Assembly: GCF_000420945.1 (NCBI RefSeq)
Contig: NZ_ATVX01000005.1
Span: 124,001-188,000, forward strand
DNA length: 64,000 bases
Origin: Butyrivibrio sp. VCB2006
GTDB taxonomy: Bacteria > Bacillota > Clostridia > Lachnospirales > Lachnospiraceae
Reading direction: 5' to 3'
Each line of letters starts with the position of its first letter. Positions within the stretch are counted from its first letter, which is position 1. Of this stretch, positions 21,940 through 56,520 are shown in pieces. The position numbers and the translations under genes are program-made. The notes below the pieces were generated by a model. It was not told where the DNA came from and did not search any database. It was given only the letters and a program-made list of their open reading frames with translations.

Positions 21940-21974
21940 TGAATACTGAATACAAATAGACTACGAGGAATAAA

Positions 21975-23030: not shown

Positions 23031-23038
23031 CTATAGGT

Positions 23039-31784: not shown

Positions 31785-32921
31785 ATGCGTATAAACTTTA
31801 ATGTACCTCCTTTTACAGGAAAAGAATTCGATTATATCAAGGAATGCGTTGAGAATCAGAAGATTTGCGGTGATGGTCCATATACTGCAAAGGCTAATGA
31901 GTGGATTGAGAAAAAGACAGGTGTAAGCAAAGCACTTCTTACAACCTCCTGTACTCATGCTACAGAGATGTCAGCAATTTTGGCAGGCATCAAAGAAGGT
32001 GATGAAGTAATCCTTCCTTCCTATACATTTGTTTCTACAGCAAATGCATTTGTTCTTCGCGGTGCCAAGGTTGTTTTTGTTGATATCAGACCTGACACCA
32101 TGAATATTGATGAAAATCTTATAGAACAGGCTATTACCTCCAAGACCAGAGCAATTGTTCCTGTTCACTACGCAGGTGTTGCCTGTGAGATGGACACCAT
32201 CATGGACATTGCCAAGAGACATAATCTTATTGTTATCGAGGATGCTGCTCAGGGCGTTATGTCTTCCTATAAGGGTAAGGCCCTTGGCTCAATCGGTGAT
32301 TTTGGTAACTACAGTTTCCATGAGACCAAGAATTATAGTATGGGTGAAGGCGGAGCCCTTCTTCTTAGAGATGAGAAGTACGTGGATGATGCTATTATCA
32401 TCAGAGAAAAGGGTACTAACCGCACACTCTACAAGCTTGGTAAGGTTGATAAGTACAGCTGGATCGAACCAGGCTCATCATATCTTCCAAGTGAGATGAA
32501 TGCTGCATATCTCTATGCACAGCTTGAAAAGGCTGATGAAATCAACGATGCAAGAATGGATCACTGGAACAGATATTACGAGGCTTTAAGGCCTCTTCAG
32601 GAAAAAGGTCTCATAGAGCTTCCTGTAGTACCTGAGGGCTGCGTTCACAATGCCCACATGTTTTATCTTAAGTGTAAGGACTTGGAGGAGAGAACAGGTC
32701 TTATCAATTATCTTCAGAGCAATGATATTCTTCCTGCATCACATTATGTACCTCTCCATTCTTCTAAGGCCGGACTTATCTATGGCGAGTTCAGAGGAGA
32801 GGATAGATATACAACCAAAGAAAGTGAGAGACTCCTCAGACTTCCTATGTACTACAAGCTTACAGATGAGGATCTTGATGAGGTTGTCATGAGAGTTAAG
32901 GAGTACTACAAGTTTTCTTGA
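31785..32921 (+). CDS. wecE: dTDP-4-amino-4,6-dideoxygalactose transaminase (WecE/RffA)
   Basis: The 378-residue PLP aminotransferase of the DegT/DnrJ/EryC1 family has very strong WecE features: NVPPFTGKEFDYIKE, KICGDGPYTAKANEWIEKKTG, ALLTTSCTHATEMSA, PDTMNIDENLIEQAIT, HYAGVACEMDTIM, and SFHETKNYSMGEGGALLL with the PLP lysine in HETKN. WecE converts dTDP-4-keto-6-deoxyglucose to dTDP-Fuc4N. The upstream enzymes RmlA and RmlB are not in the window and must be elsewhere. A GNAT gene at 34793 could provide the acetylation step. GAGGAG precedes the ATG. Confidence 0.9.
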   Translation: MRINFNVPPFTGKEFDYIKECVENQKICGDGPYTAKANEWIEKKTGVSKALLTTSCTHATEMSAILAGIKEGDEVILPSYTFVSTANAFVLRGAKVVFVDIRPDTMNIDENLIEQAITSKTRAIVPVHYAGVACEMDTIMDIAKRHNLIVIEDAAQGVMSSYKGKALGSIGDFGNYSFHETKNYSMGEGGALLLRDEKYVDDAIIIREKGTNRTLYKLGKVDKYSWIEPGSSYLPSEMNAAYLYAQLEKADEINDARMDHWNRYYEALRPLQEKGLIELPVVPEGCVHNAHMFYLKCKDLEERTGLINYLQSNDILPASHYVPLHSSKAGLIYGEFRGEDRYTTKESERLLRLPMYYKLTDEDLDEVVMRVKEYYKFS

Positions 32922-32955
32922 GGCTAAATAACACAAAAACTTGGTTGGGGCGCTT

Positions 32956-34791
32956 ATGAAAAAGTCACGAATGAATATGAGCATAATAGTATCCGCTGTG
33001 GCAGTACTGACTGTAATGGTAGTGACACTTATGTTTGGTGACTATTTTTTCGACCTTAACGATGATGTTTTGATGAAAGATATACTCTCAGGGGCCTACA
33101 CAGGTGCTCCTGAGGGGCGTAATATACAGATGCTGTATCCAATTAGCTGGTTTATCTCGCTATTTTATAAAACAGGGATAAATCTTGACTGGTACGGCAT
33201 CTTTTTATGTGCAATGCAGTATTTGTGCCTGTATTTGGTTACATCAAGGCTCTGCAGAAAAGCAGCAGATTCAAAAAGGGCTGTGTTATACGCGGCCTGC
33301 ATAGCAGTGGCTACCCTGGGCTTTTTCTGGCCTCATTTTTTATTTGTCCAGTATACCTTTGTATGCGGAATGCTCTCTTCTACAGCGGCATTTCTGATTC
33401 TTCTTTCTGACAAGGAGGATAAAAAAGATAACTATATTGCCCTCATTCTGATTCTGGTAGCCTATCTTATCAGGTCGGAGATGCTTCTTTTGACCCTTCC
33501 CATGGTAGGTGTTGCCATACTGATCAAATGGGCATTATCCATGCAGGAATACTGCAGGGCTTCAGTTATGTCTTTTGTAGGGGAAAAGAAACAGCTATTT
33601 AGAAAGTACCTTGGTCTGTGCTTTATGGTTGCTGCAGGGCTTATAATCTGCACTGTGATCCATAAGATTGCCTATTCTCCTGCTGAGTGGAAGGAATTCA
33701 ACAGATTTTTTGACAACAGAACAGAGCTTTATGACTTCCAATATATTCCTGACTATGCAGAAAACAAGGACTTCTACGATAGTGTAGGGCTCTCTGAAAG
33801 TGAGCAAAAGCTCCTAGAGAATTATAACTTTGCGTTGGATGATGAGATAAATGCCGATTTGGTGGGCGAGGTGGCAGAATATGCGGCCCAGACTAAGAGC
33901 GCCGATGAGCCATTATCAGCAAGGCTTTCCAAATCCATGTCGTTATACATATACAGACTTCATCATGTGTCAAAACCAAAGTCCTATGAGTATCCAATGA
34001 CAGATTTTCCTTGGAATATTGGGATTATAGTGCTGTACATTGCCACCGCTCTGGCCCTTTTTGTAATTCATAAGAAAAATAAGCATTACAAGGTTGTTTC
34101 CTGTCTTCTTCTGATTACTCTTTTAGCATGCAGAACAGTACTGTGGCTTTATATTATAATGAGAGGTAGGGATCCGATCCGCATAACTCATCCGCTGTAT
34201 CTTATGGAACTTCTGATTCTTACAGGGATGATTGTACTGTTATCAGAGTCAAAGGGTGAGAAATCTTCTGAAAAGAATTCGAATAAACTTTGGTTTGTGG
34301 CACTTGCCATCGGTCTCATCGGAGCTGCTTCAATTCCAATGCAGAGTAGCGTGATAAACCATGAGAATACAATACGTCAGGCTATGCTTGATAAATACCG
34401 GGCTTTATATGACTATTTTGACGACAACAAAGACAACTACTATTTTATAGACGTTTATACCAGTGTGACACTTGGAGATGCAGCTACGGAGGAATCCGCT
34501 ACCTTTTCAGAGAAGATGTTTGACAGAGTGGATAACAGCTTTGCAAACCATGATCTTCTGGGAGGATGGGCATCAAAGAGCCCTATTTACCAGGATAAGC
34601 TGGAAAACGCAGGTTTTTTGAATGTTCAGGATGCCCTTATTTCTGACGGTGTTTATTTTGTTCAGAATAAAACTTCAGATACGGAATGGCTATTGAATTA
34701 TTACAGGGAAAAGGGAATTGGCATCAGCATAGAACAGACGGATATGATTGCTGATACCTTTGGAATATATAAGTTAGAAAGAGTTGAGTAA
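32956..34791 (+). CDS. GT-C-like polytopic membrane protein, function unassigned
   Basis: The 611-residue protein has about twelve hydrophobic segments. After the first helix it carries FGDYFFDLNDDVLMKDILSG, an N-D-D acidic motif where GT-C enzymes place catalytic acids, then APEGRNIQMLYPISWFISL. A hydrophilic stretch of about 100 residues (235-335) interrupts the helices, and a 150-residue soluble tail ends the protein. I do not recognise a named family. The ATG at 32956 is preferred over an in-frame TTG at 32941. It sits between WecE and its candidate acetyltransferase. Confidence 0.6.
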   Translation: MKKSRMNMSIIVSAVAVLTVMVVTLMFGDYFFDLNDDVLMKDILSGAYTGAPEGRNIQMLYPISWFISLFYKTGINLDWYGIFLCAMQYLCLYLVTSRLCRKAADSKRAVLYAACIAVATLGFFWPHFLFVQYTFVCGMLSSTAAFLILLSDKEDKKDNYIALILILVAYLIRSEMLLLTLPMVGVAILIKWALSMQEYCRASVMSFVGEKKQLFRKYLGLCFMVAAGLIICTVIHKIAYSPAEWKEFNRFFDNRTELYDFQYIPDYAENKDFYDSVGLSESEQKLLENYNFALDDEINADLVGEVAEYAAQTKSADEPLSARLSKSMSLYIYRLHHVSKPKSYEYPMTDFPWNIGIIVLYIATALALFVIHKKNKHYKVVSCLLLITLLACRTVLWLYIIMRGRDPIRITHPLYLMELLILTGMIVLLSESKGEKSSEKNSNKLWFVALAIGLIGAASIPMQSSVINHENTIRQAMLDKYRALYDYFDDNKDNYYFIDVYTSVTLGDAATEESATFSEKMFDRVDNSFANHDLLGGWASKSPIYQDKLENAGFLNVQDALISDGVYFVQNKTSDTEWLLNYYREKGIGISIEQTDMIADTFGIYKLERVE

Positions 34792-34792
34792 T

Positions 34793-35320
34793 ATGAGTGA
34801 TATGGAAATTTTGACCCAGGGTAATCTGGTAAGCTTTAGAATGATAACAAGGCAGGATACTGACCTTGTTGTTAAGTGGCGTAATAACCCAAGAGTTAGA
34901 GATAACTTCGTTTACAGAGAGTATTTTACAAATGAAATACATGAGAAATGGCTTGAAGACTTCGTATTTGCTGGCAAGGTAGTTCAGATGATCATCCTTG
35001 AAAAGGACAGCAATAGGCCAGTTGGAAGTGTGTATTTTAAATATACAACAGAAGACAAAACCGAGGCAGAGTACGGCATTTTTATAGGTGAGGATGATGC
35101 TATCGGCAAGGGCTACGGCAATGAAACTGCCAAACTTGCAACAGCTTATGCTAAAGACTCCCTTGGAATCAAAAAACTTATACTCAGAGCTTTTTGTTAT
35201 AATACAGCAGCAATAAAGAGCTATGAGAATGCAGGCTTTGTTAAATATCAGGACCTTCCGGCGGTAGAGTGCAGTGATGGTCAAAAAAGTGATATGATAC
35301 TCATGGAGAATTGTTTATAA
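34793..35320 (+). CDS. GNAT acetyltransferase, RimJ/L-like; WecD-like role by context
   Basis: The 175-residue protein begins MSDMEILTQGNLVSFRMI and has the acetyl-CoA motif GEDDAIGKGYGNETAKLA and RAFCYNTAAIKSYENAGFVKYQ. It resembles sugar N-acetyltransferases of the RimJ/RimL type. With the WecE-like aminotransferase two genes upstream, acetylation of dTDP-Fuc4N to dTDP-Fuc4NAc is the best guess. It could instead be a second PseH-like enzyme. Start: the ATG at 34793 follows the preceding stop immediately; an ATG at 34802 is possible. Confidence 0.72.
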   Translation: MSDMEILTQGNLVSFRMITRQDTDLVVKWRNNPRVRDNFVYREYFTNEIHEKWLEDFVFAGKVVQMIILEKDSNRPVGSVYFKYTTEDKTEAEYGIFIGEDDAIGKGYGNETAKLATAYAKDSLGIKKLILRAFCYNTAAIKSYENAGFVKYQDLPAVECSDGQKSDMILMENCL

Positions 35321-35340
35321 ATCGAAAGGTGATTTACCAA

Positions 35341-36288
35341 ATGACAGATAAGAGAATCAGCTTTGTTATTCCCTGCTATAGATCAGAGAAAACACTGGGC
35401 TCAGTAATAGAGGAAATTGAAAAGACAATGGCTACCCGAAACGGTTTTAGCCATGACATTATTCTTGTAAACGACGGTTCTCCGGATAATACCTGGGAAA
35501 CCATTCTTTCCGAGGCTTCAAAGGCAGGGGATGGACATATTATCGGCATAAATTTTGCCAAGAACTTTGGACAGCATGCAGCGCTTATGGCCGGACTTAA
35601 CAGATCAACCGGGGACTATGTGGTGTGTCTTGATGATGATGGTCAGACTCCTGCAGACGAGGTATTTAAGCTTATTGATGCTCTGGAAAATGGCGCAGAT
35701 GTTGCATACGCCAGATATGGACACAAGCAGCACAACATATTCAGAAACTTCGGAACCTTTATGAATGAGACTATGGCCTCGGTAATGCTTGGAAAGCCCA
35801 AGGATCTTTTTGTATCAAGTTACTTTGCTGTAAGAAGATTTGTTGTGGATGAAATGGTCAAGTACGAGAGCTCATACCCTTACGTTATAGGCCTGGTCCT
35901 TAGGACCACCAAGAACATTGTGAATGTGGATGTTAATCACAGAAAACGTGAGGTGGGACAGAGCGGCTATACATTTTCAAAGCTTCTTGGCCTATGGATA
36001 AACGGCTTTACGGCGTTTAGCATAAAGCCACTTAGAATTGCTACTTTCACAGGTTTTTCTTTTGCCTTTATCGGCTTCATATATGGGATTTATACCATCA
36101 TCAAGAAGTTTGTAAATCCTGATGTACCGGTAGGATTTTCGGCACTGATGAGCGCTGTAATATTCATTGGGGGCATGCTTATGCTGATGCTTGGCATGAT
36201 AGGTGAGTATTTGGGCAGAGTTTATATATCTCAGAACAAGAATCCACAATTTGTAATTCGCGAGACTACGGAAGATGGAAAAAAGTGA
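35341..36288 (+). CDS. GtrB/DPM1-like GT2 glycosyltransferase
   Basis: The 315-residue protein has an N-terminal GT-A domain: ISFVIPCYRSEKTLG, LVNDGSPDNT, NFAKNFGQHAALMAG and VVCLDDDGQTPADEV (acidic metal site with the Q characteristic of GtrB). Two C-terminal helices follow (about 235-265 and 275-300). It probably loads a sugar onto undecaprenyl phosphate for GtrA (31287) to flip. The ATG at 35341 follows GAAAGGTG; a TTG at 35311 is rejected. It overlaps the next gene by 14 bases. Confidence 0.86.
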   Translation: MTDKRISFVIPCYRSEKTLGSVIEEIEKTMATRNGFSHDIILVNDGSPDNTWETILSEASKAGDGHIIGINFAKNFGQHAALMAGLNRSTGDYVVCLDDDGQTPADEVFKLIDALENGADVAYARYGHKQHNIFRNFGTFMNETMASVMLGKPKDLFVSSYFAVRRFVVDEMVKYESSYPYVIGLVLRTTKNIVNVDVNHRKREVGQSGYTFSKLLGLWINGFTAFSIKPLRIATFTGFSFAFIGFIYGIYTIIKKFVNPDVPVGFSALMSAVIFIGGMLMLMLGMIGEYLGRVYISQNKNPQFVIRETTEDGKK

Positions 36289-38019: not shown

Positions 38020-40650
38020 ATGAGACAGATTATTAGTAAGAAAACAGCAATTACTTTAACTGCATTACTCATTACGCTAGTAGCTATTCTGAGTATTTTT
38101 CCGTTTAGAATTTGGACCGGTGTTCAGGAATATTCTGCCGGAGGTAAATTTACGGAGAACTCAGGGGTAGTCAATTACGAATACACCCTGATGCAGAAAA
38201 TAGTAGCTCAATATGACAGGCTTAGCAGTGTTGACGTTTATGTATCTGAAATGGTAAATGGCAGATATATAGGCGTTTCTGTGTATGATGAAAACGCCGG
38301 TGAGATACTGAGGACTTTTATAGATACAGAAGGGGTCGAGATTCCAGGCTTCGTTAATGTGCCTATGGAGCTTAATGTAGAAGTCGGCAAGGAATACTAT
38401 ATAGGAATTAAGGGATGTAGATCCAAATATACGGTGGGACTTGAGGATCTGTCAGATGAAGTCGGATATGTGGGAAGCCTTTTTTACAACTGGGAAGAGA
38501 TTCCGGGCAGACATATTTATGCCACCTATAACTACAGGATCCCTATGGCCAAGAGCCTGTCTCTTATAGGAATTCTTGCATTGACTGTAGCATGCATTGT
38601 TGTTTTACTTGTTACAGAGCTGTTTTTCAAAAAGCATCCTGAGCTTAACACCTTATCAACAGGCGAAAGCGCTATCAGGGTTGTGGCTAATCCTATAGCG
38701 GCAGTGTGCTTTGCCACTCTGATGATTATGGTATTTCCGCTTAGAGTCTTTGATTCAAGGGCTGTGGATATAATTTTTTATGAGTTGGGTCTTATTATTG
38801 CCGCAGGTATGACATTTTATGCAATAAATCACAAGGTTGTAAGCCACAAGTATGGAATATCCTTCTGGGAAGGCGTATCAGACAAAAACAAAGTTATCTA
38901 TGTCCTTCAGATGCTGATGATCGCTCTTGCTATATGGCATGCCAGCGATTATATGAACGGACTTTATGATATTTATCACACCTTATCTGAGAGAAGAATG
39001 ATAATCTGCCTGTTACTTTTGATTATCCTCACCTTTGCATTTAAGGATGTGTTTAATGTATTTAATCTTATTTGGCTTGTGATATCCATTGTGGGAGCCA
39101 TCAATTATTACAGAGCAAATTCCTTTACTCCTGAGGAAAAAGAGTTTGATCTTAAGAACATGGCTCTTAAGTATCTCATATGGATTGTTATCCTGGCAGG
39201 ATTTGTTGTTATTTGTCTCGTAAGGACAATGATTTCCAGAATCGCTCACAATATACGCAGCAAAAAGAAAGCCTTTGGAACCAGCTATCGCATTAGCTGG
39301 TTTGGATGTGCGCTGATCATTCTTTTTGCAATGCTTATTATCTTCAGGAACACAAGAACCTGGGGAATTTACCTGGCACTTATCTATGGCGGTCTGTATT
39401 TCAGGCTATATTACTGGAAGGGCAAGAAGGACTGGTACAAGATTCTTTCCGGTGGCCTTATGCTCAACTTTGCCATTTCACTGGGATTTTCTTTGCTTCA
39501 CAGATATTTCCCGGGATATGTAAGCGGAAGATTTGGTTTCATCTTCCACACAGTAACAGTTACTGCCGAATACCTTACCTTTATGGGAGCGGCAGCTACG
39601 GTTATGCTGGTTATTAAGGTTGTGGCTTTCCCTAAGGGACAACGTTTTGCGGAGCTGTTTAAGACAGCATGGAAAGAGATCATTCTTTTTGGATGGATCA
39701 TGGCATATGCCATATTTACAGTATCAAGAACAGCATATGCAGCAATCTGCGCGGTTGTTTTGTGTGTAATCCTTGTGGTGATAAGCCAGTACAAGAAGCA
39801 GTTCCTGAGAATCGTTGGGGTAATGCTGGTGTCAGTACTTGTATGCTTCCCAGCAGCCTTTACACTTCAGAGAATTGTACCAACCATGGTTGCACAGCCT
39901 GTATTTTATGTGATTGATGATGCAGACTATGCCATCAGAGGCGGCGCATCCTGGGATAACCCCAACTTTATGTGCGTTGAAAGATTTGTAAATCTTTTTG
40001 GAATTAAGATTTTGGGCATCGATGCAGGAGATTATATCTACCCTGCCGATGTTCATAACTATGATAGAAATGGTCAGCCAATTTTGGATAACTATGGTTA
40101 CCCGATTGATAACTCCGTAGAAGAGTATTATCAGCAGGAACAGGGAAGGATAACTCTTCCGGAGGCTGTAGGCGACTATCTTGTTTCAAACGGATTTACT
40201 CATGCTGAGTTCATAATGCTTATGGATACTCTAAACGGATATGTTGATGAGAATAGCAGACTTGATGTTATTTCCAACGGACGTATCACTGTTTTCAAAT
40301 CATATCTTAATGAACTTAACATGAAGGGGCATGATGAAATGGGGGCACTTCTTCCAAACGGAGAAATTGCAGTACATGCCCATAATACATATATTCAGGT
40401 AGCCTATGACAATGGAATTGTCACAGGTGTGATTTTTGTGATGCTGATTCTGTTTGCTATAGTCGCAGGCATCAGCATGTACAAGAGAAATAAGGAAAAT
40501 GATCCTCTCACGCTTATTTCTTTTGCTATTACTATAGGTTTTGTTGTGGCAGGAATGACAGAGTGGGTATTCCATCTGTGCAATCCTATGACTGTTGCAC
40601 TGATGCTGTCTTTCGCGGGGATGATTTTTAAGGATAAGAAGAATGAGTAA
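38020..40650 (+). CDS. O-antigen ligase/polymerase-family (Wzy_C) membrane protein with N-terminal outer domain
   Basis: The 876-residue protein has one N-terminal helix, an extracytoplasmic beta-rich domain (about 30-170; repeated Y/V/G-rich strands such as KEYYIGIKG), and about a dozen further helices. A large outer loop (about 625-795) ends in AVHAHNTYIQVAYDNGI, the H-A-H-N-x-x-x-x signature of O-antigen ligases and Wzy_C polymerases. It is much longer than usual ligases because of the N-terminal domain. It may polymerise or ligate the second glycan of this locus, complementing the EpsG-like protein at 8794. Overlaps capD by 8 bp. Confidence 0.8.
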   Translation: MRQIISKKTAITLTALLITLVAILSIFPFRIWTGVQEYSAGGKFTENSGVVNYEYTLMQKIVAQYDRLSSVDVYVSEMVNGRYIGVSVYDENAGEILRTFIDTEGVEIPGFVNVPMELNVEVGKEYYIGIKGCRSKYTVGLEDLSDEVGYVGSLFYNWEEIPGRHIYATYNYRIPMAKSLSLIGILALTVACIVVLLVTELFFKKHPELNTLSTGESAIRVVANPIAAVCFATLMIMVFPLRVFDSRAVDIIFYELGLIIAAGMTFYAINHKVVSHKYGISFWEGVSDKNKVIYVLQMLMIALAIWHASDYMNGLYDIYHTLSERRMIICLLLLIILTFAFKDVFNVFNLIWLVISIVGAINYYRANSFTPEEKEFDLKNMALKYLIWIVILAGFVVICLVRTMISRIAHNIRSKKKAFGTSYRISWFGCALIILFAMLIIFRNTRTWGIYLALIYGGLYFRLYYWKGKKDWYKILSGGLMLNFAISLGFSLLHRYFPGYVSGRFGFIFHTVTVTAEYLTFMGAAATVMLVIKVVAFPKGQRFAELFKTAWKEIILFGWIMAYAIFTVSRTAYAAICAVVLCVILVVISQYKKQFLRIVGVMLVSVLVCFPAAFTLQRIVPTMVAQPVFYVIDDADYAIRGGASWDNPNFMCVERFVNLFGIKILGIDAGDYIYPADVHNYDRNGQPILDNYGYPIDNSVEEYYQQEQGRITLPEAVGDYLVSNGFTHAEFIMLMDTLNGYVDENSRLDVISNGRITVFKSYLNELNMKGHDEMGALLPNGEIAVHAHNTYIQVAYDNGIVTGVIFVMLILFAIVAGISMYKRNKENDPLTLISFAITIGFVVAGMTEWVFHLCNPMTVALMLSFAGMIFKDKKNE

Positions 40651-42589
40651 GAAAAAAGAGCCTTTTAATTATCAAAAACTTTATAGAAGAACGGGCCTTA
40701 TTATCTACGATATTATCAGCATAATTTTTGCTAGTTATATTGCTATTTTGATGAGATATGAGTTTAGGCTTGATACTATTCCGGATCACTTTTTAACTCC
40801 GGTTAATACCTTTTTGCCTATAAACATACTGCTGACCTTTGGCGTGTTCTATTTGTTCAAACTTTATGACAGCCTTTGGGCCTATGCAGGAGAAAGAGAA
40901 CTTCAGAATCTGGTTATGGCCTGTGTTATTTCAGGTGTTATCAATGCGATTGGCCTTCAGTTCTTTAAATCCCAGTCACAGCCGGTTCCACAGAGTTACT
41001 ATTTCCTGTACACCTTCATTCTGTTGTCAATGATCTTTGTAAGCAGGTTTTCTTACAGATTCCTTCGCAGTCAGAAGCACAGGGTAGAGAACAGGAACAA
41101 CAGCAAGGCTGTAATGATAATCGGAGCAGGAGAAGCTGCCAACATTATCATCAAGGATATTATTACAAGTAACTACTCTACCATGTCCGTTAAGTGCATC
41201 ATTGATGATGACACAAATAAGTGGGGCAAGTATATCCAGGGAATCAGAGTTGTCGGTGGCAGAGATAAGATTGAAGAGTGTGCTGATCTCTACGATATTG
41301 ATGAGATCATTGTGGCAATGCCTTCAGTATCAAGACCGGAACTTAAAAAGATCCTGGAGATATGCAAGAATACAAACTGTAAGCTCCGTTCGCTTCCGGG
41401 AATGTATCAGCTGGTTAACGGAGAGGTTAACGTATCAAGACTTCGTGAAGTTGAGGTAGAAGACCTTCTTGGAAGAGATCCTATTGCGGTAGATATGGAC
41501 CAGATTGCCGGATATGTAAGCGGCAAGGTTGTTATGGTTACAGGAGGCGGCGGATCAATCGGTTCAGAGCTTTGCCGTCAGATCGCAGGTCATAAGCCAA
41601 AGCGCCTTATCATAGTGGATATCTACGAGAACAATGCCTATGACATCCAGCAGGAGCTGGTTCGCAAGTATCCTGAAATGGATCTTGTAGTACTTATAGC
41701 TTCAGTTAGAAATACCCTGAGGATCAACTCTATTTTTGAACAGTACAAGCCTGATATTGTTTATCACGCGGCTGCTCATAAGCATGTTCCTCTTATGGAG
41801 GACAGCCCGGGAGAGGCTATCAAGAACAATGTATTTGGTACCTGGAAGACTGCAATGGCAGCTGCCATGAACGGCACCAAGAAGTTTGTACTTATCTCCA
41901 CAGATAAAGCTGTTAACCCAACCAATGTCATGGGAGCCAGCAAGAGAATCTGCGAGATGATTGTTCAGACCTTTAACAAGCACTATGATACAGAGTTTGT
42001 TGCTGTAAGATTCGGTAACGTTCTTGGATCCAACGGTTCGGTTATTCCGCTTTTCAAGAAGCAGATAGCTGCAGGAGGTCCTGTTACAGTTACAGACCCT
42101 AACATCATCAGATACTTCATGACAATTACCGAGGCAGTTTCACTGGTTCTTCAGGCCGGTGCCTACGCAAAGGGCGGTGAGATATTCGTCCTTGATATGG
42201 GTGAGCCAGTCAAGATCCTTGATCTTGCAGAAAACCTTATAAAGCTTTCCGGATATAAGGTTGGAGAGGATATCAAGATTGAATTTACCGGACTTCGTCC
42301 AGGTGAGAAACTTTACGAAGAGATGCTAATGGATGAGGAGGGACTTCAGGAGACATCCAACAAGATGATCCATATCGGTAAGCCTATTGAGATGGATGAG
42401 ATGAAGTTCTTTTCGCAGCTTGAGAAGCTTAATGTTGCAGCCAAGGAGGAATCTCCAAACATTAGGGAGCTGGTAAAAGAGATTGTTGAAACCTATCATC
42501 CTGATGTTCACAGATATGTTATGACAAGAGACAGAAAAGAAGCGCTTGAAAAAACTTCTGAAATTATAAACAGTGGTCTTTCTCAGTAA
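40643..42589 (+). CDS. capD: Membrane-bound UDP-GlcNAc 4,6-dehydratase (CapD/PglF/WbpM type)
   Basis: The product makes UDP-2-acetamido-2,6-dideoxy-xylo-hexos-4-ulose. The 648-residue protein has four N-terminal helices (about 15-130), a first Rossmann domain with IIGAGEAANIII, and a catalytic SDR domain with VTGGGGSIGSELCRQI, YHAAAHKHVPLME, ISTDKAVNPTNVMGASKR (the M-x3-K variant of the SDR active site used by this class) and GLRPGEKLYEEML. The next genes encode a DegT aminotransferase and a PglC-like transferase, so it supplies a bacillosamine-type initiating sugar. Confidence 0.93.
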   Translation: MSKKKEPFNYQKLYRRTGLIIYDIISIIFASYIAILMRYEFRLDTIPDHFLTPVNTFLPINILLTFGVFYLFKLYDSLWAYAGERELQNLVMACVISGVINAIGLQFFKSQSQPVPQSYYFLYTFILLSMIFVSRFSYRFLRSQKHRVENRNNSKAVMIIGAGEAANIIIKDIITSNYSTMSVKCIIDDDTNKWGKYIQGIRVVGGRDKIEECADLYDIDEIIVAMPSVSRPELKKILEICKNTNCKLRSLPGMYQLVNGEVNVSRLREVEVEDLLGRDPIAVDMDQIAGYVSGKVVMVTGGGGSIGSELCRQIAGHKPKRLIIVDIYENNAYDIQQELVRKYPEMDLVVLIASVRNTLRINSIFEQYKPDIVYHAAAHKHVPLMEDSPGEAIKNNVFGTWKTAMAAAMNGTKKFVLISTDKAVNPTNVMGASKRICEMIVQTFNKHYDTEFVAVRFGNVLGSNGSVIPLFKKQIAAGGPVTVTDPNIIRYFMTITEAVSLVLQAGAYAKGGEIFVLDMGEPVKILDLAENLIKLSGYKVGEDIKIEFTGLRPGEKLYEEMLMDEEGLQETSNKMIHIGKPIEMDEMKFFSQLEKLNVAAKEESPNIRELVKEIVETYHPDVHRYVMTRDRKEALEKTSEIINSGLSQ

Positions 42590-42612: not shown

Positions 42613-43884
42613 ATGGAACTTAAGCCATTCGAAAGCAAAATCTATCTTTCTTCACCTACAATGCATGGGGAAGAAATCAAGTACATTCAGGAAGCCTATG
42701 ACACCAACTGGATGTCCACAATAGGCACTAACATCAACGAGGCCGAGAAGATGATCTGCGAGAAGGTTGGCTGCAAGGATGCAGTGGCTCTTTCTGCCGG
42801 AACAGCAGCTCTTCATCTTGCAATCAAGCTCGCAGGTGAAAGACTTTACGGACAGACCAAGGTTGGTCATGGAAGTCTTGAGGGACACAAGGTATTCTGC
42901 TCAGATATGACCTTCGATGCCACAGTTAATCCTATTGCCTATGAAGGCGGAGAGGCTGTATTTATCGATACAGAGTATGACACCTGGAACATGAGCCCTA
43001 AGGCCCTTGAGAAGGCTTTTGAGATTTACCCTGAGGTTAGACTTGTTGTAATTGCTCACCTCTACGGAACTCCAGGCAAGATGGATGAAATCCGCAATAT
43101 CTGCGATAAGCATAATGCGCTTATTGTAGAGGATGCTGCCGAGTCTCTGGGCGCAACCTATAAGGGCAAGCAGACCGGAATTCTCGGTGATTACGGCATT
43201 ATTTCTTTTAACGGAAACAAGATCATTACAGGATCTGCTGGCGGAATGTTCCTGACAAATAATGAAGAGGATGCCCACAAGGTTCGTAAGTGGTCAACCC
43301 AGGCAAGAGAAGATGCTACCTGGTATCAGCACGAGGAGCTTGGCTATAACTACCGTATGAGCAATGTAATCGCCGGTGTTGTTAGAGGACAGATTCCGTA
43401 TCTTGAGGAGCACATTGCTCAGAAGAAGGCTATTTATGAGCGTTACAAGGAAGGCTTTAAGGATCTTCCTGTGACCATGAATCCATATGATGAGAGCTGC
43501 AGTGAGCCTAATTACTGGCTTTCATGTATCCTGATCGATAAGGACGCTATGTGCAAGCAGGTTCGTGGAGAAAAAGATGTTCTTTATTCAACAGAGCCCG
43601 GAAAGAGCTGCCCTACTGAGATTTTGGAGACAATTGCCAAGTACAATGCAGAGGGAAGACCAATCTGGAAACCTATGCATATGCAGCCTGTTTACAGAAT
43701 GAATCCGTTTATTACAGAAAGCGGAAACGGAAGAGCAAGAAGCAATGCTTACATCAATGAGGGAGCAGTTCCTGATGTGGGTATGGACATTTTTGAAAGA
43801 GGTCTATGCCTTCCAAGTGACAACAAGATGACTCCGCAGCAGCAGGATGTGATCATTGAGATAATTAAGCGCTGCTTTGCATAA
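42613..43884 (+). CDS. DegT/DnrJ/EryC1 PLP aminotransferase (PglE/EpsN-like)
   Basis: The 423-residue protein has IYLSSPTMHGEEIKYIQEA, ALSAGTAALHLAIKLAG, VEDAAESLGATYKG and SFNGNKIITGSAGGMFL, in which the lysine of N-G-N-K binds PLP. It is slightly long for PglE because of an insertion around residues 78-96. Directly behind the dehydratase gene it should aminate the 4-keto sugar to UDP-2-acetamido-4-amino-2,4,6-trideoxyglucose. In bacillosamine pathways an N-acetyltransferase (PglD) comes next; none is present here. Confidence 0.88.
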   Translation: MELKPFESKIYLSSPTMHGEEIKYIQEAYDTNWMSTIGTNINEAEKMICEKVGCKDAVALSAGTAALHLAIKLAGERLYGQTKVGHGSLEGHKVFCSDMTFDATVNPIAYEGGEAVFIDTEYDTWNMSPKALEKAFEIYPEVRLVVIAHLYGTPGKMDEIRNICDKHNALIVEDAAESLGATYKGKQTGILGDYGIISFNGNKIITGSAGGMFLTNNEEDAHKVRKWSTQAREDATWYQHEELGYNYRMSNVIAGVVRGQIPYLEEHIAQKKAIYERYKEGFKDLPVTMNPYDESCSEPNYWLSCILIDKDAMCKQVRGEKDVLYSTEPGKSCPTEILETIAKYNAEGRPIWKPMHMQPVYRMNPFITESGNGRARSNAYINEGAVPDVGMDIFERGLCLPSDNKMTPQQQDVIIEIIKRCFA

Positions 43885-43906: not shown

Positions 43907-44521
43907 ATGTATAAACATTTTTTTAAAAGACTATTTGATATAGTGTTATCCCTTATAGTTATAATCCTTTTCTCATGGCTGTATATTATTCTGGCAATCC
44001 TTGTCAGGACTAAGCTTGGAAGCCCAATTATCTTCAAGCAGCAGCGCCCCGGTAAGGATGAAAAGATATTTGGAATGTACAAGTTCAGGTCCATGACTGA
44101 TGAGAAGGATGAGAACGGAAATCTTCTTCCTGATGAAGTAAGACTGACCTCCTTTGGTAAGAAACTCAGAGCAACCAGTCTTGACGAGCTCCCTGAGTTT
44201 TTCAACATTCTCAAAGGAGACATGAGCTTTATAGGGCCAAGACCACTTCTGGTCAAGTATCTGCCTTACTATAACGAGAGGGAGAGACTTCGCCACAGTG
44301 TAAGACCGGGACTTACCGGCCTGGCACAGGCTAACGGCAGGAACGCAATTTCCTGGGAAAAGAAATTTGAATACGATGTTTATTATGTAGAACATTTGAC
44401 TTTCCTTATGGATTTGAAGGTTATAATTGATACTGTGAAGACTGTTTTGTCCCATGACGGAGTTGTGCTTAATGCACTTCCTGATTTTGACGAATACAGA
44501 CAGCAGCAGGCTAAAGAGTGA
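43907..44521 (+). CDS. Short phosphoglycosyltransferase (PglC/EpsL-like)
   Basis: The 204-residue monotopic enzyme transfers the amino-sugar phosphate to undecaprenyl phosphate. It has [18 protein letters not shown] (re-entrant helix), [39 protein letters not shown] with the catalytic Asp-Glu dyad, [16 protein letters not shown] and [14 protein letters not shown], all of the PglC core. It lacks the four-helix N-terminal domain of the larger initiator at 5383. Ends with a GTGA overlap into the next gene. Confidence 0.93.
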
Positions 44522-45456
44522 GCAGATTTATGGCGTACATGACACCTATATGCAAACTTAATAGTGATGAGTTTAAGTCTCTCTATGTAAAAAGAGAAGA
44601 CATGATCCCCTACTCCTTTGGTGGAAACAAGGCAAGAAAAGCGTTCTTGTTTTTTGAGGATATTGATAAGGGAGATTATGACTATGTGGTGACCTATGGC
44701 AGCAGCCATTCCAATCACTGCAGAGTGGTAGCCAATATGGCGGCAGAAAGGGGCATGAAATGTGTTATCATCGGCCCGCAGGAAGTAAGTGACAGTACCT
44801 ATAACAGTCGCATGATGGAACTGTTTGGGGCAGAGATCATCACAGTTCCTGTAAATGACGTCAGCGCCACAATAGATAGTAAAATGCAGGAACTTACAGA
44901 TTACGGACACAAGCCATATTTCATCATGGGCGGCGGACATGGAAATATCGGTACTCAGGCTTATGTAGAGTGCTATGATGAAATCATAGAGTTTGAAAAA
45001 GAGAATAAGATTCATTTTGACTATATCTTTTTTGCTTCCGGAACAGGAACTACTCAGGCAGGTCTTGTATGCGGCCAGCTGATACATGGGGATGACCGAA
45101 AAATCATCGGTATCAGCATTGCCAGGAAGAATCCAAGAGGCAGGGATGTGGTTATAGACAGCATTAGAGATTACCTTAATGGTGAATACTCAGAGGGTGA
45201 GATTCAGGACAAGACCATTTTCCTGGATGACTATACCGGAGATGGTTATGGTGTGGACAGTACAGAAATACAGGGCACTATAGAAAAATCACTTGTTATG
45301 TATGGAATGCCACTGGATAGCACCTATACAGGAAAAGCATTCCTTGGTATGGAGAAATATATCAGACAGAACAGTATAGCTGATAAGAACATTCTTTTTA
45401 TCCACACCGGAGGAACACCACTGTTTTTTGATGAGCTGAATAAAATGCGGAGGTGA
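44518..45456 (+). CDS. ACC deaminase/D-cysteine desulfhydrase-like PLP enzyme
   Basis: The 312-residue fold-type II PLP protein has [21 protein letters not shown], where the lysine of G-G-N-K-x-R-K is the PLP lysine, then [21 protein letters not shown] for the substrate carboxylate, [15 protein letters not shown] for PLP phosphate, and [12 protein letters not shown] near the end. The family includes ACC deaminase and D-cysteine desulfhydrase, which deaminate small amino acids. Here it is coupled to a PglC-like gene and an ATP-grasp gene, suggesting it prepares or edits an amino-acid-like substituent for the glycan. The actual substrate is unknown. The start is GTG at 44518 (overlap GTGA); ATG at 44530 is an alternative. 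Confidence 0.82.
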
Positions 45457-45458
45457 AT

Positions 45459-46463
45459 ATGAGCACAAACATATTAGTATTGAGTGCAGGAACAAGAAAT
45501 AAGTTAGTACAGGCTTTCAAGCATGAACTTGCCAATAACGGAAAGGTTATTGCTACAGACTGTTCCAATATTGGACCGGCAATTTATGATGCCGATAAGG
45601 CTGTTATCGTTCCCAAGATCAAGGATCCTTTCTATGTAGATGAGATTTTGGGACTTTGTAAAAGAGAAAAAATAGATGGAGTATTCAGCCTCATTGACCC
45701 TGAGCTGTCTCTTCTTGCAGAGAACGCAGACAGATTCACTGAAATAGGGGTAACTCCTATTGTGTCTTCTTACGAGCTTTGCGAGACAAGCCTTGATAAA
45801 TACCAGATGTATGAGATGCTGGTTAAGCTGGGCATTCCAACAGCAAAGTGTTATCTTTCAATTGAAGACTTTGAGAATGCAATGTCAGAGGGAGATGTTA
45901 GTTTCCCTGTTTTTGTTAAGCCAAGAAAGGGAAGCGCTTCTATCAACATAAATGCAGTTGAATCCAAGGAAATGCTGATAGCTCTTTTCCATGATTATGA
46001 CGACCTTATCATTCAGGAGTATATGAAGGGCCAGGAGTATGGCGCTGATGTGTATATCGATATGATCTCAGGAAAGTGCACATCAATTTTCCTCAAGGAA
46101 AAAATTAAGATGAGAGCAGGCGAGACTGATAAGTCCGTATCTGTTAAGGATGAGAATCTCTTTAAACAGATAGTATCCTTTGTTGAGACTGTTGGTTACA
46201 GAGGAATGATCGATATAGATCTTTTCTACGATAACGCTACAGATACCTGGTATCTGTCAGAGGTTAATCCAAGATTTGGCGGCGGTTATCCACATGCTTA
46301 CGCATGCGGAGTAAACTTCCCAAGACAGATCATCAATAATCTTAAAGGAATTGAGAATCCGGTGAACATTGGCGATTACCAGGAAGGCGTGTACATGATG
46401 AAATACAATGAACTCTGTGTTCTTCCGGAAGAAAAGCTTGTTATAACCGAGCGAAATAATTAA
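45459..46463 (+). CDS. ATP-grasp ligase (CarB-like)
   Basis: The 334-residue protein has a pre-ATP-grasp Rossmann part (NILVLSAGTRNKLVQAF, KIDGVFSLIDPEL) and an ATP-grasp domain with FPVFVKPRKGSASI, IIQEYMKGQEYGADVYID and LSEVNPRFGGGYPHAYACG, the metal and ATP residues of CarB-type ligases. Such enzymes form amide or peptide bonds through an acyl-phosphate. I infer acylation of the 4-amino sugar, or another amine on the glycan, with an amino acid or similar acid. The ATG at 45459 follows GGAGGT; GTG at 45453 is rejected. Two bases separate it from the PLP enzyme gene. Confidence 0.85.
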   Translation: MSTNILVLSAGTRNKLVQAFKHELANNGKVIATDCSNIGPAIYDADKAVIVPKIKDPFYVDEILGLCKREKIDGVFSLIDPELSLLAENADRFTEIGVTPIVSSYELCETSLDKYQMYEMLVKLGIPTAKCYLSIEDFENAMSEGDVSFPVFVKPRKGSASININAVESKEMLIALFHDYDDLIIQEYMKGQEYGADVYIDMISGKCTSIFLKEKIKMRAGETDKSVSVKDENLFKQIVSFVETVGYRGMIDIDLFYDNATDTWYLSEVNPRFGGGYPHAYACGVNFPRQIINNLKGIENPVNIGDYQEGVYMMKYNELCVLPEEKLVITERNN

Positions 46464-46483: not shown

Positions 46484-47581
46484 ATGCCTAAGGCACTTAT
46501 TTTGGCAAATTCATCAAGCGGTCTTTATGACTTTCGAAATGAACTGCTATTGAGACTGTTAAAGGAAGGCTATGAAGTAGTGATCAGCCTTCCTGATGAT
46601 TTAAAAAACAAAGAACTTAATGAAGAGGGCTGCAGAGTTATTCATACGGACATTAACAGGCGCGGAGTTAATCCCATTCAGGATATGGCTCTTTTCAATG
46701 CCTACAAGAAGCTTCTTAAGGCTGAAAAACCTGACGTTGTTCTTACATATACTATTAAGCCCAACATTTACGGCGGATTTGCCTGCAGATGTCTTCATAT
46801 ACCGTATATGTCCACGATTACAGGACTTGGTTCCACCTTTGAAAGAGGCGGAATGCTGCTTAAGCTCATAGTGGCCATGTATAAGGTATCACTTAAGAAA
46901 TGCAGATGTCTCTTTTTCCAGAATGATACCAACAGAAAGATATTTGAGCAGCACGGAATCAGAGCAGGGAAACATGTGACTGTAAGCGGTTCGGGAGTTA
47001 ATCTTGAAAAACACAGATTTGAAGAATATCCCGGACATGCGGATGATATAACAAGATTCCTTTACATAGGAAGACTCATGAAGGAAAAGGGAACCGAGGA
47101 GTACCTATGCAGTGCTCAAAAGCTTCATGAGAAGTATGGAGACAAGGTATCTTTTGCGGCAGTTGGATACTTTGAGGATGATTACGAGGAACTGGTGAAT
47201 AAAGCTCAGAAGGAAGGCTATCTTAAGATGATACCTTTCCAGAAGGATATTCATCCTTATATGAAAGAGGCGGATGCCATTGTTCACCCATCCTACCATG
47301 AGGGAATGAGTAATGTCCTTATGGAGGCAGCAGCCACCGGAAGACCTGTTATCTGTTCAGACATAAGCGGATGTAAGGAAATAGTAAACAGAGATGTTTC
47401 CGGAATCCTATTTGAGCCAAGAAATAAAGAGAGCCTTTATGAAGCGTTGGAACGTTTTATGAGCCTTGACTTAGATCAGAGAAAAGAAATGGGTCTGGCC
47501 GGAAGAAAATGGGTCACAGAGCATTTTGACAGAATGCGCGTGGTTGACGCATATGTGCGAGAATTGACAGAAGTAGTATAA
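46484..47581 (+). CDS. GT4 family glycosyltransferase (PglA-like)
   Basis: The 365-residue protein has ALILANSSSGLYDFRNELL, TDINRRGVNPIQDM, LTYTIKPNIYGGF and ISTITGLGSTFERGG in the acceptor half, and FLYIGRLMKEKGTEEYL, HPSYHEGMSNVLMEAAATG (E-x7-E) and CSDISGCKEIV in the donor half. This layout is close to PglA and related enzymes that add the second sugar to undecaprenyl-diphosphate-bacillosamine, fitting the PglC-like transferase three genes upstream. Last gene of the run; a 51-bp gap follows. Confidence 0.87.
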   Translation: MPKALILANSSSGLYDFRNELLLRLLKEGYEVVISLPDDLKNKELNEEGCRVIHTDINRRGVNPIQDMALFNAYKKLLKAEKPDVVLTYTIKPNIYGGFACRCLHIPYMSTITGLGSTFERGGMLLKLIVAMYKVSLKKCRCLFFQNDTNRKIFEQHGIRAGKHVTVSGSGVNLEKHRFEEYPGHADDITRFLYIGRLMKEKGTEEYLCSAQKLHEKYGDKVSFAAVGYFEDDYEELVNKAQKEGYLKMIPFQKDIHPYMKEADAIVHPSYHEGMSNVLMEAAATGRPVICSDISGCKEIVNRDVSGILFEPRNKESLYEALERFMSLDLDQRKEMGLAGRKWVTEHFDRMRVVDAYVRELTEVV

Positions 47582-54576: not shown

Positions 54577-56520
54577 ATGTGTGGAATTTGCGGATACATA
54601 TCTAAAAAGAGAATATCAGAAGATGACCTCAGGATCATGAATGATACCATGTATCATCGTGGTCCTAATGATAGTGGTGTTGCTATCTATGAGGGAACCG
54701 ATGGTTACAGCATCGGCCTTGCCCAGAGAAGACTTTCGATACTTGATCTTTCTCCTCTTGGTCATCAGCCAATGCATTCGGAAAATGGCAGAATAACCAT
54801 TGTCTTCAACGGTGAGATATATAATTTCCTCGAGCTTAAAGAAGAACTTAACGGATACCCTTTTAAGTCAAACTGCGACACTGAGGTAATCATTGCGGCA
54901 TACCTTCGCTGGGGCATTCAGATGGTGGACCATATCCATGGTATGTTTGCTATAGCTCTCTATGATAGGGAAACTCAGGATGTTTACCTGATAAGAGACA
55001 GAATAGGTAAGAAACCACTCTTTTACTGGATTGATAATAACAATATCGTATTTGCCTCAGAGCTTAAGCCTATTATGAAGTGCCCCGGATTTAAGGGAGA
55101 AATCAGAAGACAGCTCCTTCCAAGATATCTGTATCAGCAGTATATAATGGCTCCCGATACAATTTTTGAGAATGTGTACAAGCTTGAACCCGGTACAATT
55201 CTCAAGTTCAGAAACGGAAATATCAAAAAGTGGAAATATTGGGATGTTAAAGAAGTTTACGCAAGGGAAAGTGCAAACCCTGTAACCAGCTATGAAGAGG
55301 CCAAAGAGGGCCTTAAGCAGCGCCTTAGACATTCCGTTGCCGGAAGAATGATAGCTGACGTGCCTCTAGGAACATTCCTGTCAGGCGGATATGATTCATC
55401 TCTTGTAACAGCGATTGCACAGGAACTTTCAGATAAGCCTGTAAAAACATTTTGTATTGGCTTTGATGTTCCTCAGTATAACGAGGCTGCTTATGCCAAG
55501 GAGGTAGCTGCCCACCTTGGATGTGACCATACAGAACTCTATATTTCGGAAAAAGAGATGTTCGAGCTGGTCAGCAGTATTCCGCAGTATTATGATGAGC
55601 CTTTCGCAGACAACTCAGAAATCCCATCAATGCTGGTGTGTAAGCTGGCTAAAAAAGATGTAACAGTTGCTCTTTCAGGTGACGGTGGAGATGAGTTCTT
55701 CTGCGGTTATAATATTTATGACAACGTAAGACAGGCACAGATGCTTGAGATTCCGGGAGCAATCGTAAACGGGATCGGCAAGATACCTGTTCCCGGTGGC
55801 AGACTGATTGATAAGATGCCATTCAGGGTTAAGGTGGTTGCCGGAAACAGAGATCCGGAGACCAAGACACAGCTTGTTTCCGAAGGATATGTAAGAGCAT
55901 CCCATGCTTTTATTACAGGACAGGAAACCCTGGATATTCCAATGACAGCAAGGCAGTATCTGGAGACAGATTATAATCTTGGGGATAATATTGCTCCTGT
56001 TCTTTATCCTATGGAGTCCATATATAAGGTGGATAACTTCCAGGTCAGAAGGATGCTTCTTGATATGGATACTTATCTTCCTGAGGATATTCTGGTTAAG
56101 ATGGACAGAGCTTCCATGAAGTATTCGTTGGAGGCCAGATGCCCGATCATGGATACTGATGTAATGGAGTATTCCTTCAGAATACCTCATAAGTTCAAGT
56201 ATTGTAATGGCGATAAGAAGCATATCCTCAAGGATATTGCTTATGATTACATTCCTAAGGAGCTTTTGGACAGACCAAAGACAGGTTTTGGTGTTCCTAT
56301 GGATCAGTGGCTCAGAGGCCCTTTAAGGGAGCAGCTGCTTGATTACAGTAGTACGTCCTTCCTTAAAAAGCAGGGAGTATTTGATCCGGATTATGTATCC
56401 AGATTTATAAACAACTACGTAGTAAACGGAGATGCCGGCCCGGCAACAGGTGCAAACTACAGTAAGATTGCCTGGTCATTCTATATTTTCCAGCAATGGT
56501 ATAACTACCACATTTTATGA
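54577..56520 (+). CDS. asnB: Asparagine synthase-like glutamine amidotransferase
   Basis: The 647-residue protein has an N-terminal class II glutaminase domain with nucleophile Cys2 (MCGICGYISKK), RRLSILDLS, FNGEIYNFLE and a C-D-T-E-V segment, and a synthetase domain whose PP-loop is FLSGGYDSSL (269-275), with SGDGGDEFFCGY later. In glycan loci such enzymes amidate sugar carboxylates to uronamides or act on side-chain acids. With TviB/TviC upstream, amidation of a HexNAcA residue is the likely role, in place of free asparagine synthesis. Tyr replaces the usual Ile in the PP-loop. Overlaps the next GT4 by ATGA. Confidence 0.87.
   Translation: MCGICGYISKKRISEDDLRIMNDTMYHRGPNDSGVAIYEGTDGYSIGLAQRRLSILDLSPLGHQPMHSENGRITIVFNGEIYNFLELKEELNGYPFKSNCDTEVIIAAYLRWGIQMVDHIHGMFAIALYDRETQDVYLIRDRIGKKPLFYWIDNNNIVFASELKPIMKCPGFKGEIRRQLLPRYLYQQYIMAPDTIFENVYKLEPGTILKFRNGNIKKWKYWDVKEVYARESANPVTSYEEAKEGLKQRLRHSVAGRMIADVPLGTFLSGGYDSSLVTAIAQELSDKPVKTFCIGFDVPQYNEAAYAKEVAAHLGCDHTELYISEKEMFELVSSIPQYYDEPFADNSEIPSMLVCKLAKKDVTVALSGDGGDEFFCGYNIYDNVRQAQMLEIPGAIVNGIGKIPVPGGRLIDKMPFRVKVVAGNRDPETKTQLVSEGYVRASHAFITGQETLDIPMTARQYLETDYNLGDNIAPVLYPMESIYKVDNFQVRRMLLDMDTYLPEDILVKMDRASMKYSLEARCPIMDTDVMEYSFRIPHKFKYCNGDKKHILKDIAYDYIPKELLDRPKTGFGVPMDQWLRGPLREQLLDYSSTSFLKKQGVFDPDYVSRFINNYVVNGDAGPATGANYSKIAWSFYIFQQWYNYHIL

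Follow-up and report, generated by a model that had tools for sequence, protein, structure and literature searches.

A conserved PLP enzyme/ATP-grasp ligase pair in a bacillosamine-type cassette of Butyrivibrio sp. VCB2006 and its possible role in sugar aminoacylation

Gene organization of the cassette

We analysed a stretch of 64,000 nucleotides of the forward strand of Butyrivibrio sp. VCB2006 (contig NZ_ATVX01000005.1, positions 124,001 to 188,000; genome size 3.95 Mb), hereafter called the window. It carries five consecutive genes, all on the + strand, for a CapD/PglF-type dehydratase, a DegT-family aminotransferase, a PglC-type phosphoglycosyl transferase, a pyridoxal 5'-phosphate (PLP) enzyme and an ATP-grasp ligase (Table 1), in the arrangement given by a preliminary description made from the sequence. 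The last two genes are the subject of this study. The dehydratase, the aminotransferase and the phosphoglycosyl transferase of the di-N-acetylbacillosamine pathway are all present. The top NCBIfam model for the aminotransferase was that of the LegC family (TIGR04181, 305 bits), below its cut-off of 420. Two starts are possible for the PLP gene, ATG 44530 and GTG 44518, the latter overlapping the stop codon of PglC. The mechanically delimited open reading frame of the ATP-grasp ligase overlaps the PLP stop codon by 4 bases; an ATG located 2 bases past this stop is preceded by GGAGG, in agreement with the earlier statement that the two genes lie two bases apart. The glycosyltransferase gene that follows also adjoins the ATP-grasp gene in many relatives.

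Table 1. Genes and features of the cassette (positions in the window).
Feature	Position	Strand	Remarks
CapD/PglF-type UDP-N-acetylglucosamine (UDP-GlcNAc) 4,6-dehydratase (Polysacc_synt_2)	40643..42589	+	PF02719, 407.9 bits; top model PseB, 185 bits, below cut-off
DegT-family aminotransferase, LegC/PglE-like, predicted to make the 4-amino sugar	42613..43884	+	PF01041, 245.3 bits
PglC-type phosphoglycosyl transferase (Bac_transf), predicted to load the sugar phosphate on lipid	43907..44521	+	PF02397, 211.8 bits
PLP enzyme, fold II, D-cysteine desulfhydrase / CuyA / 1-aminocyclopropane-1-carboxylate (ACC) deaminase superfamily	44518..45456	+	
PylC-like ATP-grasp ligase (NF009406, PRK12767.1-5)	45453..46463	+	likely start ATG 45459
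GGAGG ribosome-binding site of the ATP-grasp gene, within the 3' end of the PLP gene	45449..45453	+	read directly
Glycosyltransferase of family GT4, next gene of the operon	46484..47581	+	

Conservation of the PLP/ATP-grasp pair

One genome per species (84,980 species) was scanned with an alignment of three PLP sequences, and the best 80 of 265 confirmed stretches were retained. According to their titles, these loci belong to Lachnospiraceae, Oscillospiraceae, Christensenellaceae, Tissierellia, Bacillaceae and other Firmicutes, with one from Fusobacterium naviforme. An ATP-grasp gene of the window type was present at most 2.2 kb downstream of the PLP gene in 75 of the 80 loci, the remaining five being two contig ends and the loci L141, L155 and L157. 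The gap between the two genes did not exceed 60 bases in 71 of these 75 cases, and the genes overlapped in 40. A gene for a protein of 509 residues separates them in L120 (10970-12499), L128 and L152 (7073-8602). This protein appeared AsnB-like by eye, and its L152 copy had no Pfam or NCBIfam match.

As the 80 loci had been chosen by similarity, two evenly drawn genome samples were added. Among 299 genomes of the window's family, 42 had a PLP match, the window's own included. We examined 31 others; nine low-scoring matches, with E-values of 4e-5 or worse, fell outside this set. Whenever the protein scored at least 272 bits on a hidden Markov model of the PLP subfamily, an ATP-grasp gene was fused to it, adjoined it or lay about 5 kb off (L052; 15 of 15 cases), whereas none was found nearby when the score was 173 bits or less (0 of 16, some on contigs of just 5-7 kb; Fisher p 3e-9). 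A PLP fragment of 77 residues at a contig end (G093), with an ATP-grasp gene one gene on, agreed with the pattern of the subfamily. The second sample, 398 genomes of the phylum, contained 89 with a PLP match. The five highest-scoring ones besides the window (at least 222 bits) all had the ATP-grasp gene, whereas the next 24 examined (183-205 bits) had none within 1.5 kb (p 8e-6); 73 lower-scoring matches fell outside the examined set. The counts in the 80 loci and in both even samples indicate that the pairing is not due to chance, and the conservation that the preliminary description had proposed to look for was thus observed. The PLP/ATP-grasp pair is a real, conserved module. In a tree of 53 PLP domains, which includes 21 of the 80 loci, the 37 ATP-grasp-linked domains were separated from the 16 unlinked ones by a branch with a Shimodaira-Hasegawa-like approximate likelihood-ratio test (SH-aLRT) value of 97.

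Family assignment of the two enzymes

The PLP enzyme had been described as ACC-deaminase-like on account of its lysine motif. The motif is indeed present and is common to the whole family, but the residues that discriminate between activities are of the D-cysteine desulfhydrase type. The top NCBIfam model was that of CuyA (190.9 bits, cut-off 450), and the models of D-cysteine desulfhydrase (TIGR01275) and ACC deaminase (TIGR01274) gave 173.7 and 146.8 bits, under their cut-offs of 289.4 and 392. Since the protein falls below the cut-off of every NCBIfam model listed, we regarded it as a separate subfamily. The structure comparison suggested with the preliminary description gave D-cysteine desulfhydrases as the nearest structures to the predicted model (mean predicted local distance difference test score, pLDDT, 91.3), with ACC deaminases second. 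The active site follows the D-cysteine desulfhydrase pattern (K, SNH, Y, YT, HTGG), and K38, S65-N66-H67, Y244, Y270 and T297 were invariant across 36 aligned sequences, the window's included. Alignment with solved relatives placed SNH opposite the SNQ of ACC deaminase, and T271 and T297 opposite a Glu and a Leu of that enzyme, positions which are presumably equivalent to E295 and L322. In the UW4 enzyme, the E295S/L322T exchange abolished ACC deaminase activity and raised D-cysteine desulfhydrase activity (PMC4048297). On residues and model scores together, ACC deaminase chemistry was rejected; the residues agree with alpha-proton chemistry acting on small amino acids, be it elimination, replacement or racemisation, and not with ring opening. 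Arg203, initially considered as specific to the subfamily, was dropped, as the D-cysteine desulfhydrase of Salmonella also aligned with an Arg there.

The ATP-grasp ligase scored 537.7 bits on its NCBIfam model, above the cut-off of 271, and its N-terminus matched the PylC-like_N domain (126.4 bits). The predicted model (pLDDT 92.1) was closest to structure 2pn1 (Z 39.0, root mean square deviation 1.5), while numerous further ATP-grasp folds, PylC (4ffl, 4ffr) among them, were found at Z 25-27. For both enzymes, such structure searches inform on family and fold only. A domain scan did not detect the L-amino acid ligase C-terminal domain PF18603 in the window ligase.

A variable slot between PglC and the PLP enzyme

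The position between the PglC and PLP genes varied among the 80 loci. It was occupied by a GNAT acetyltransferase in 26, by a GNAT fused to the PLP enzyme in 11, by a second ATP-grasp protein in 8, by a FemAB-like (Acetyltransf_6) protein in 3 and by a formyltransferase in 1; it was empty in 26 and could not be scored in 5. Assignment of the GNATs relied on BLAST comparison with one scanned example (L130), and one GNAT-PLP fusion was scanned (L120); domain scans covered each of the eight second ATP-grasp proteins as well as the formyltransferase and the FemAB-like proteins. Outside this count, a formyltransferase (PF00551) also precedes the PLP gene in genome G615. All these enzyme types can acylate amines, and 49 of the 80 loci therefore hold an enzyme of an amine-acylating type. 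This rules out that the pair simply replaces PglD everywhere; it would add a group rather than merely swap one, the window lineage itself having no slot gene.

In three loci a transporter gene lies between the second ATP-grasp gene and the PLP gene: an amino-acid permease in L117 (8536-9972) and BCCT betaine-type transporters in L129 (8506-9993) and L131 (8458-9993). This hints that the second ligase of these loci uses an imported acid. In L145 and L170, a HAD-type hydrolase gene occupies the corresponding position after the second ATP-grasp gene. The analogous cluster of E. coli O121, whose O-antigen we take to carry N-acetylglycyl-4-amino-4,6-dideoxyglucose (Qui4N), comprises genes for a DegT aminotransferase, a WbqC-family protein and a GNAT.

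Within the clade of the window's own ATP-grasp, none of the 19 PLP loci that could be scored had a gene in the slot. The absence of a slot gene from loci where the PLP gene is missing consequently proves nothing, and the proposal that capping enzymes go with the PLP enzyme only was dropped as evidence, being confounded by descent.

Fusions and aminotransferase contexts

Besides the GNAT-PLP fusions, the ATP-grasp and PLP enzymes are fused to each other in seven genomes (G263, G058, G090, G229, G271, G209 and G237). Their ATP-grasp halves are of a different type from the window ligase; of two scanned, the one in L049 contains PF18603 and the one in L042 does not, a separate second ATP-grasp protein of L042 (10440-11624) matching this domain. 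In the loci listed, these fusions and three unfused relatives (L039-L041) are accompanied by ArnC-like glycosyltransferases of family GT2, and in several of these loci also by EamA-type small membrane proteins (one scanned). Within the window's own family, PglC is fused to the ATP-grasp ligase in L192, which is the layout of PglB2, and to a LysA-like decarboxylase in L190.

The pair was found beside three kinds of aminotransferase. One is LegC-like, as in the cassette. The second is WecE-like: in L042 and L048 it scored 630 and 634 bits on the model of the dTDP-4-amino-4,6-dideoxygalactose (Fuc4N) transaminase (cut-off 375), and the enzymes of L040, L042, L048, L049 and L050 are 61-66% identical to the product of another window gene, at 31785, which scored 613 bits on the same model. 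The third occurs on two E. coli IncR plasmids, in the order rfbB, rfbA, a lipopolysaccharide biosynthesis gene, DegT aminotransferase, GNAT, PLP enzyme, ATP-grasp ligase and glycosyltransferase. Its best model was DesI (dTDP-4-dehydro-6-deoxyglucose aminotransferase), at 289.9 bits, below the cut-off of 650, and the nearest genes seen, with 65-69% DNA identity over part of the length, were E. coli genes mostly annotated vioA. The plasmid PLP enzyme is 37.7% identical to that of the window, the ATP-grasp ligase 31%, the latter scoring 349 bits on NF009404 (cut-off 316). Among 5,426 E. coli genomes, the greater part of this stretch was present in four, in every case on a plasmid; the 39 chromosomal matches seen, of 167, covered the aminotransferase only. 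The O-antigen-like block with the GNAT, PLP and ATP-grasp genes (L206, 4108-12982, and L207) is flanked by transposase genes. Together, the fusions and the three kinds of C4 aminotransferase support a link between the pair and 4-amino-sugar nucleotides.

Search for a PglD-type acetyltransferase

No PglD/EpsM-type acetyltransferase was found between the cassette genes in a domain scan of the window, as the preliminary description had noted, and the PglD_N domain (PF17836) gave zero matches in the whole genome at E<=0.001. This domain was detected in 8 of 14 control genomes; it scored weakly (22.3 bits, below the cut-off) on a hexapeptide acyltransferase of L187/G263, and weak PglD relatives can thus be missed. 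A tblastn search with two queries failed to find this same protein in L187 and was set aside in favour of PF17836. Among 21 genomes reached through their PLP loci (21 of the 80), 14 had no PF17836 match, and in G308, G309 and G319 the domain occurred solely inside frames of 404-679 residues. Another contig of the window's genome encodes a hexapeptide acyltransferase whose score on TIGR03570, the NeuD/PglB/VioB model, was 151.3 bits (cut-off 160.8). Its gene adjoins a flagellin-like gene and has an aminotransferase gene of its own nearby (neighbours recognised by eye); it could in principle act in trans. The earlier suggestion that the pair stands in place of PglD is borne out as far as the absence of PglD and the PglB2 precedent (see below) are concerned, but was too simple in view of the amine-acylating enzymes present in most loci.

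Other glycan genes of the window

The gene at 31785 belongs to a group (31785-36288) that looks like a second 4-amino-sugar module, with the WecE-type Fuc4N transaminase followed by a PseH-like GNAT (34784) and an ArnC/PgfS-like GT2 glycosyltransferase (35311). In relatives, the fused ATP-grasp-PLP proteins occur together with aminotransferases and GT2 enzymes of these kinds. Nonulosonic acid genes occupy 21505-25853 and encode a GNAT, a NeuB family protein, PseG (189.9 bits, over the cut-off), a GT2 glycosyltransferase and a CTP transferase. Two asparagine-synthase-like amidotransferases (54577-56520 and 60405-62288), located in the same polysaccharide cluster as TviB/TviC-like genes, probably amidate uronic acids. 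A DUF6044 protein (482 bits) is encoded on the opposite strand at 17377-19128, inside the glycan region.

Proposed function and alternatives

From family membership, CapD and the DegT aminotransferase most likely make UDP-2-acetamido-4-amino-2,4,6-trideoxyhexose. We propose that the PLP enzyme provides a small amino acid, by synthesis or inversion, and that the ATP-grasp ligase activates the carboxylate of this acid as an acyl phosphate and forms an amide with the 4-amine of the sugar, as its family, the fusions and its position would suggest and in analogy to the reaction proposed for PglB2 with a glyceryl group. The aminoacylated sugar would then be loaded on lipid by PglC, the activity expected of this family. 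The main reason for placing the action of the pair on the 4-amine is that the aminotransferases found with it, of three kinds, have family names that put the amine at C4. In relatives outside the window lineage, the GNAT, formyltransferase, FemAB-like protein or second ATP-grasp ligase of the slot may acylate the amino acid's own amine. This is the simplest reading of the slot: its enzymes would modify the amino group of the amino acid just attached, with an imported acid in some loci. That the ligated acid is an amino acid and the acceptor the 4-amine, taken jointly, has in our estimate a probability of roughly 0.58. A D-configuration is clearly less probable than this. It is suggested by the D-cysteine-desulfhydrase-type site, whose lysine/serine pair suits racemisation or beta-chemistry, and D-alanine or D-serine would on this basis be a guess for the product. 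The wider picture is more tentative, and we would put it at somewhat worse than even odds: a modular line, spread over Bacillota and E. coli plasmids, in which the PLP enzyme makes a (D-)amino acid, the ligase attaches it to the C4 amine of a UDP- or dTDP-4-amino sugar and an exchangeable slot enzyme caps it.

Several observations weigh against aminoacylation of the 4-amine by the pair. L141 and L155 carry similar PLP genes of the subfamily, with no window-type ATP-grasp gene and no recognisable sugar cluster around them, and in L157 PglC and the PLP enzyme occur without the ligase. PglD-like proteins of 208-224 residues with PglD_N were present in 4 of the 21 genomes mentioned above (L098, L107, L112 and L148). 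The slot enzymes could themselves acylate the 4-amine, the pair having another job, and the link between slot and PLP enzyme is confounded with descent by the uniformly empty slot of the window's own clade. Which amino acid is attached is itself a guess. Finally, the ligase is not tied to the PLP enzyme. In 16 genomes of the family with an ATP-grasp ligase at least 53% identical to that of the window, the adjoining gene encoded the PLP enzyme in 3 and a LysA/FslC-like fold-III decarboxylase in 5, and neither was found in 8; the acid may therefore differ among relatives, or the PLP enzyme be dispensable. In these last 8, PglC adjoins the ligase, and one of the genomes (G263) has a fused ATP-grasp-PLP gene elsewhere. 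This fold-III decarboxylase, likewise PLP-dependent, stands where the PLP enzyme is found elsewhere; it precedes the ligase as a free gene in four loci (L178, L186, L188 and L189) and is fused to PglC in the fifth (L190). A tree of 95 ATP-grasp proteins required at least 12 partner changes by parsimony. With 37 of its 92 inner branches weak and L043, L052 and L161 long, it was used solely for the statement that partners are exchanged. A constant ligase position is thus combined with varying helper enzymes.

Three other explanations were considered. The ligase might join an amine, supplied by the PLP enzyme or by the LysA-like decarboxylase of relatives, to the carboxylate of a uronic acid of the same glycan. 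The decarboxylases found in the PLP position in 5 loci fit this idea, as do the TviB-like dehydrogenase (47633), the TviC-like epimerase (48980) and the two AsnB-like amidotransferases of the window. A homologue of the dehydrogenase (at least 50% identity) was however present in only 21 of the 80 loci (17 of the 50 with 4 kb on both sides), compared with a PglC homologue somewhere in 76 of 80 (50 of 50), and the PglC-ATP-grasp fusion and PglB2 point to a lipid-loading substrate; we consider this explanation unlikely. Slightly less probable still is the attachment of a hydroxy acid, glycerate-like as with PglB2, the PLP enzyme serving only to deaminate a D-amino acid to a keto or hydroxy acid precursor. 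In its favour are the PglB2 precedent and the 8 of 16 close ligases without an adjoining PLP partner, and members of the PLP family deaminate D-cysteine, D-serine or ACC (PMC4048297). No dedicated keto-acid reductase was, however, found among the scanned window neighbours, and the GNAT, formyltransferase, FemAB-like and second ATP-grasp slot genes, as well as the GNAT-PLP fusions, suggest that there is an amine to acylate.

The presence of an amine-acylating slot enzyme in 49 of the 80 loci could also mean that this enzyme, or an unlinked N-acyltransferase in the window strain, acylates the 4-amine, with the pair producing some other small amide or dipeptide that is not attached to this sugar. 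A candidate in the window would be the further GNAT at 34784 (PseH model, 66.8 bits, cut-off 93.1). Against this explanation, the GNAT lies beside an ArnC-like GT2 gene, of a kind also present in L180 and L181, and near the WecE-like aminotransferase; the window lineage has no slot gene, and the pair is found with three different 4-amino sugar pathways. We regard this explanation as the least probable of the three. Overall, the interpretation of the preliminary description, acylation of an amine of the glycan by an amino acid or related acid, appears partly supported. If the modular line exists, it would supply genes for known aminoacyl-sugars such as N-acetyl-D-alanyl-Qui4N, show how the acyl group is exchanged while the rest of the pathway is kept, and provide one gene signature to predict which glycans of Bacillota and enterobacteria carry amino acids.

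Comparison with known systems

Among solved relatives, the PLP enzyme is nearest to the D-cysteine desulfhydrases StDCyD and PaDCyD and the D-cysteate sulfo-lyase CuyA (7ysk, 4d8t), with which it shares the SNH, Y-T and HTGG residues. It differs from them in scoring below their curated cut-offs and in its location in glycan operons with an ATP-grasp ligase. The ligase resembles PylC, the 3-methylornithine--L-lysine ligase, in its N-terminal domain and overall fold (4ffl, Z 25.5; 4ffr, Z 25.8), but reached only 31.1 bits on the PylC model (cut-off 248.3). It is 45-49% identical to 2pn1 and other PRK12767 'carbamoyl phosphate synthase-like' proteins; the title of 2pn1 gives only a carbamoyl-phosphate-synthase-like protein and names no substrate.

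Aminoacylated amino sugars of the kind proposed here are known from O-antigen chemistry: 4-(N-acetyl-D-alanyl)amino-4,6-dideoxy-D-glucose exists, and Qui4N is known with formyl, acetyl, N-acetylglycyl or hydroxybutyryl-L-alanyl groups (PMC3210612). The preliminary description knew of no described pathway with this pair. In the open-licence PMC literature we likewise found no description of the pair, of the PLP partner or of the variable slot, although the replacement of an acetyltransferase by an ATP-grasp enzyme has been described. The PglB2 protein of Neisseria, an ATP grasp/phosphoglycosyl transferase, makes 4-glyceramido-2-acetamido-2,4,6-trideoxyhexose instead of the acetylated sugar (PMC11130364, PMC6959607), the glyceryl transfer being called 'proposed' in one of these papers. 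Compared by description, the two systems are alike: in a pathway of the bacillosamine type, an ATP-grasp enzyme that adjoins a PglC-type transferase, or is fused with it, replaces the acetyltransferase. In the window only the PLP gene stands between PglC and the ligase, PglC and the ligase are fused in L192, and no PglD-type acetyltransferase for the same sugar was found in the genome with PF17836, within the sensitivity given above. PglB2 adds a glyceryl group, and the excerpts of these papers name no PLP partner, whereas in the present system a PLP enzyme of the amino-acid type has a fixed place next to the ligase. The use of an ATP-grasp enzyme in place of the acetyltransferase is therefore already known from PglB2, and what is new is the PLP partner enzyme together with the exchangeable helpers.

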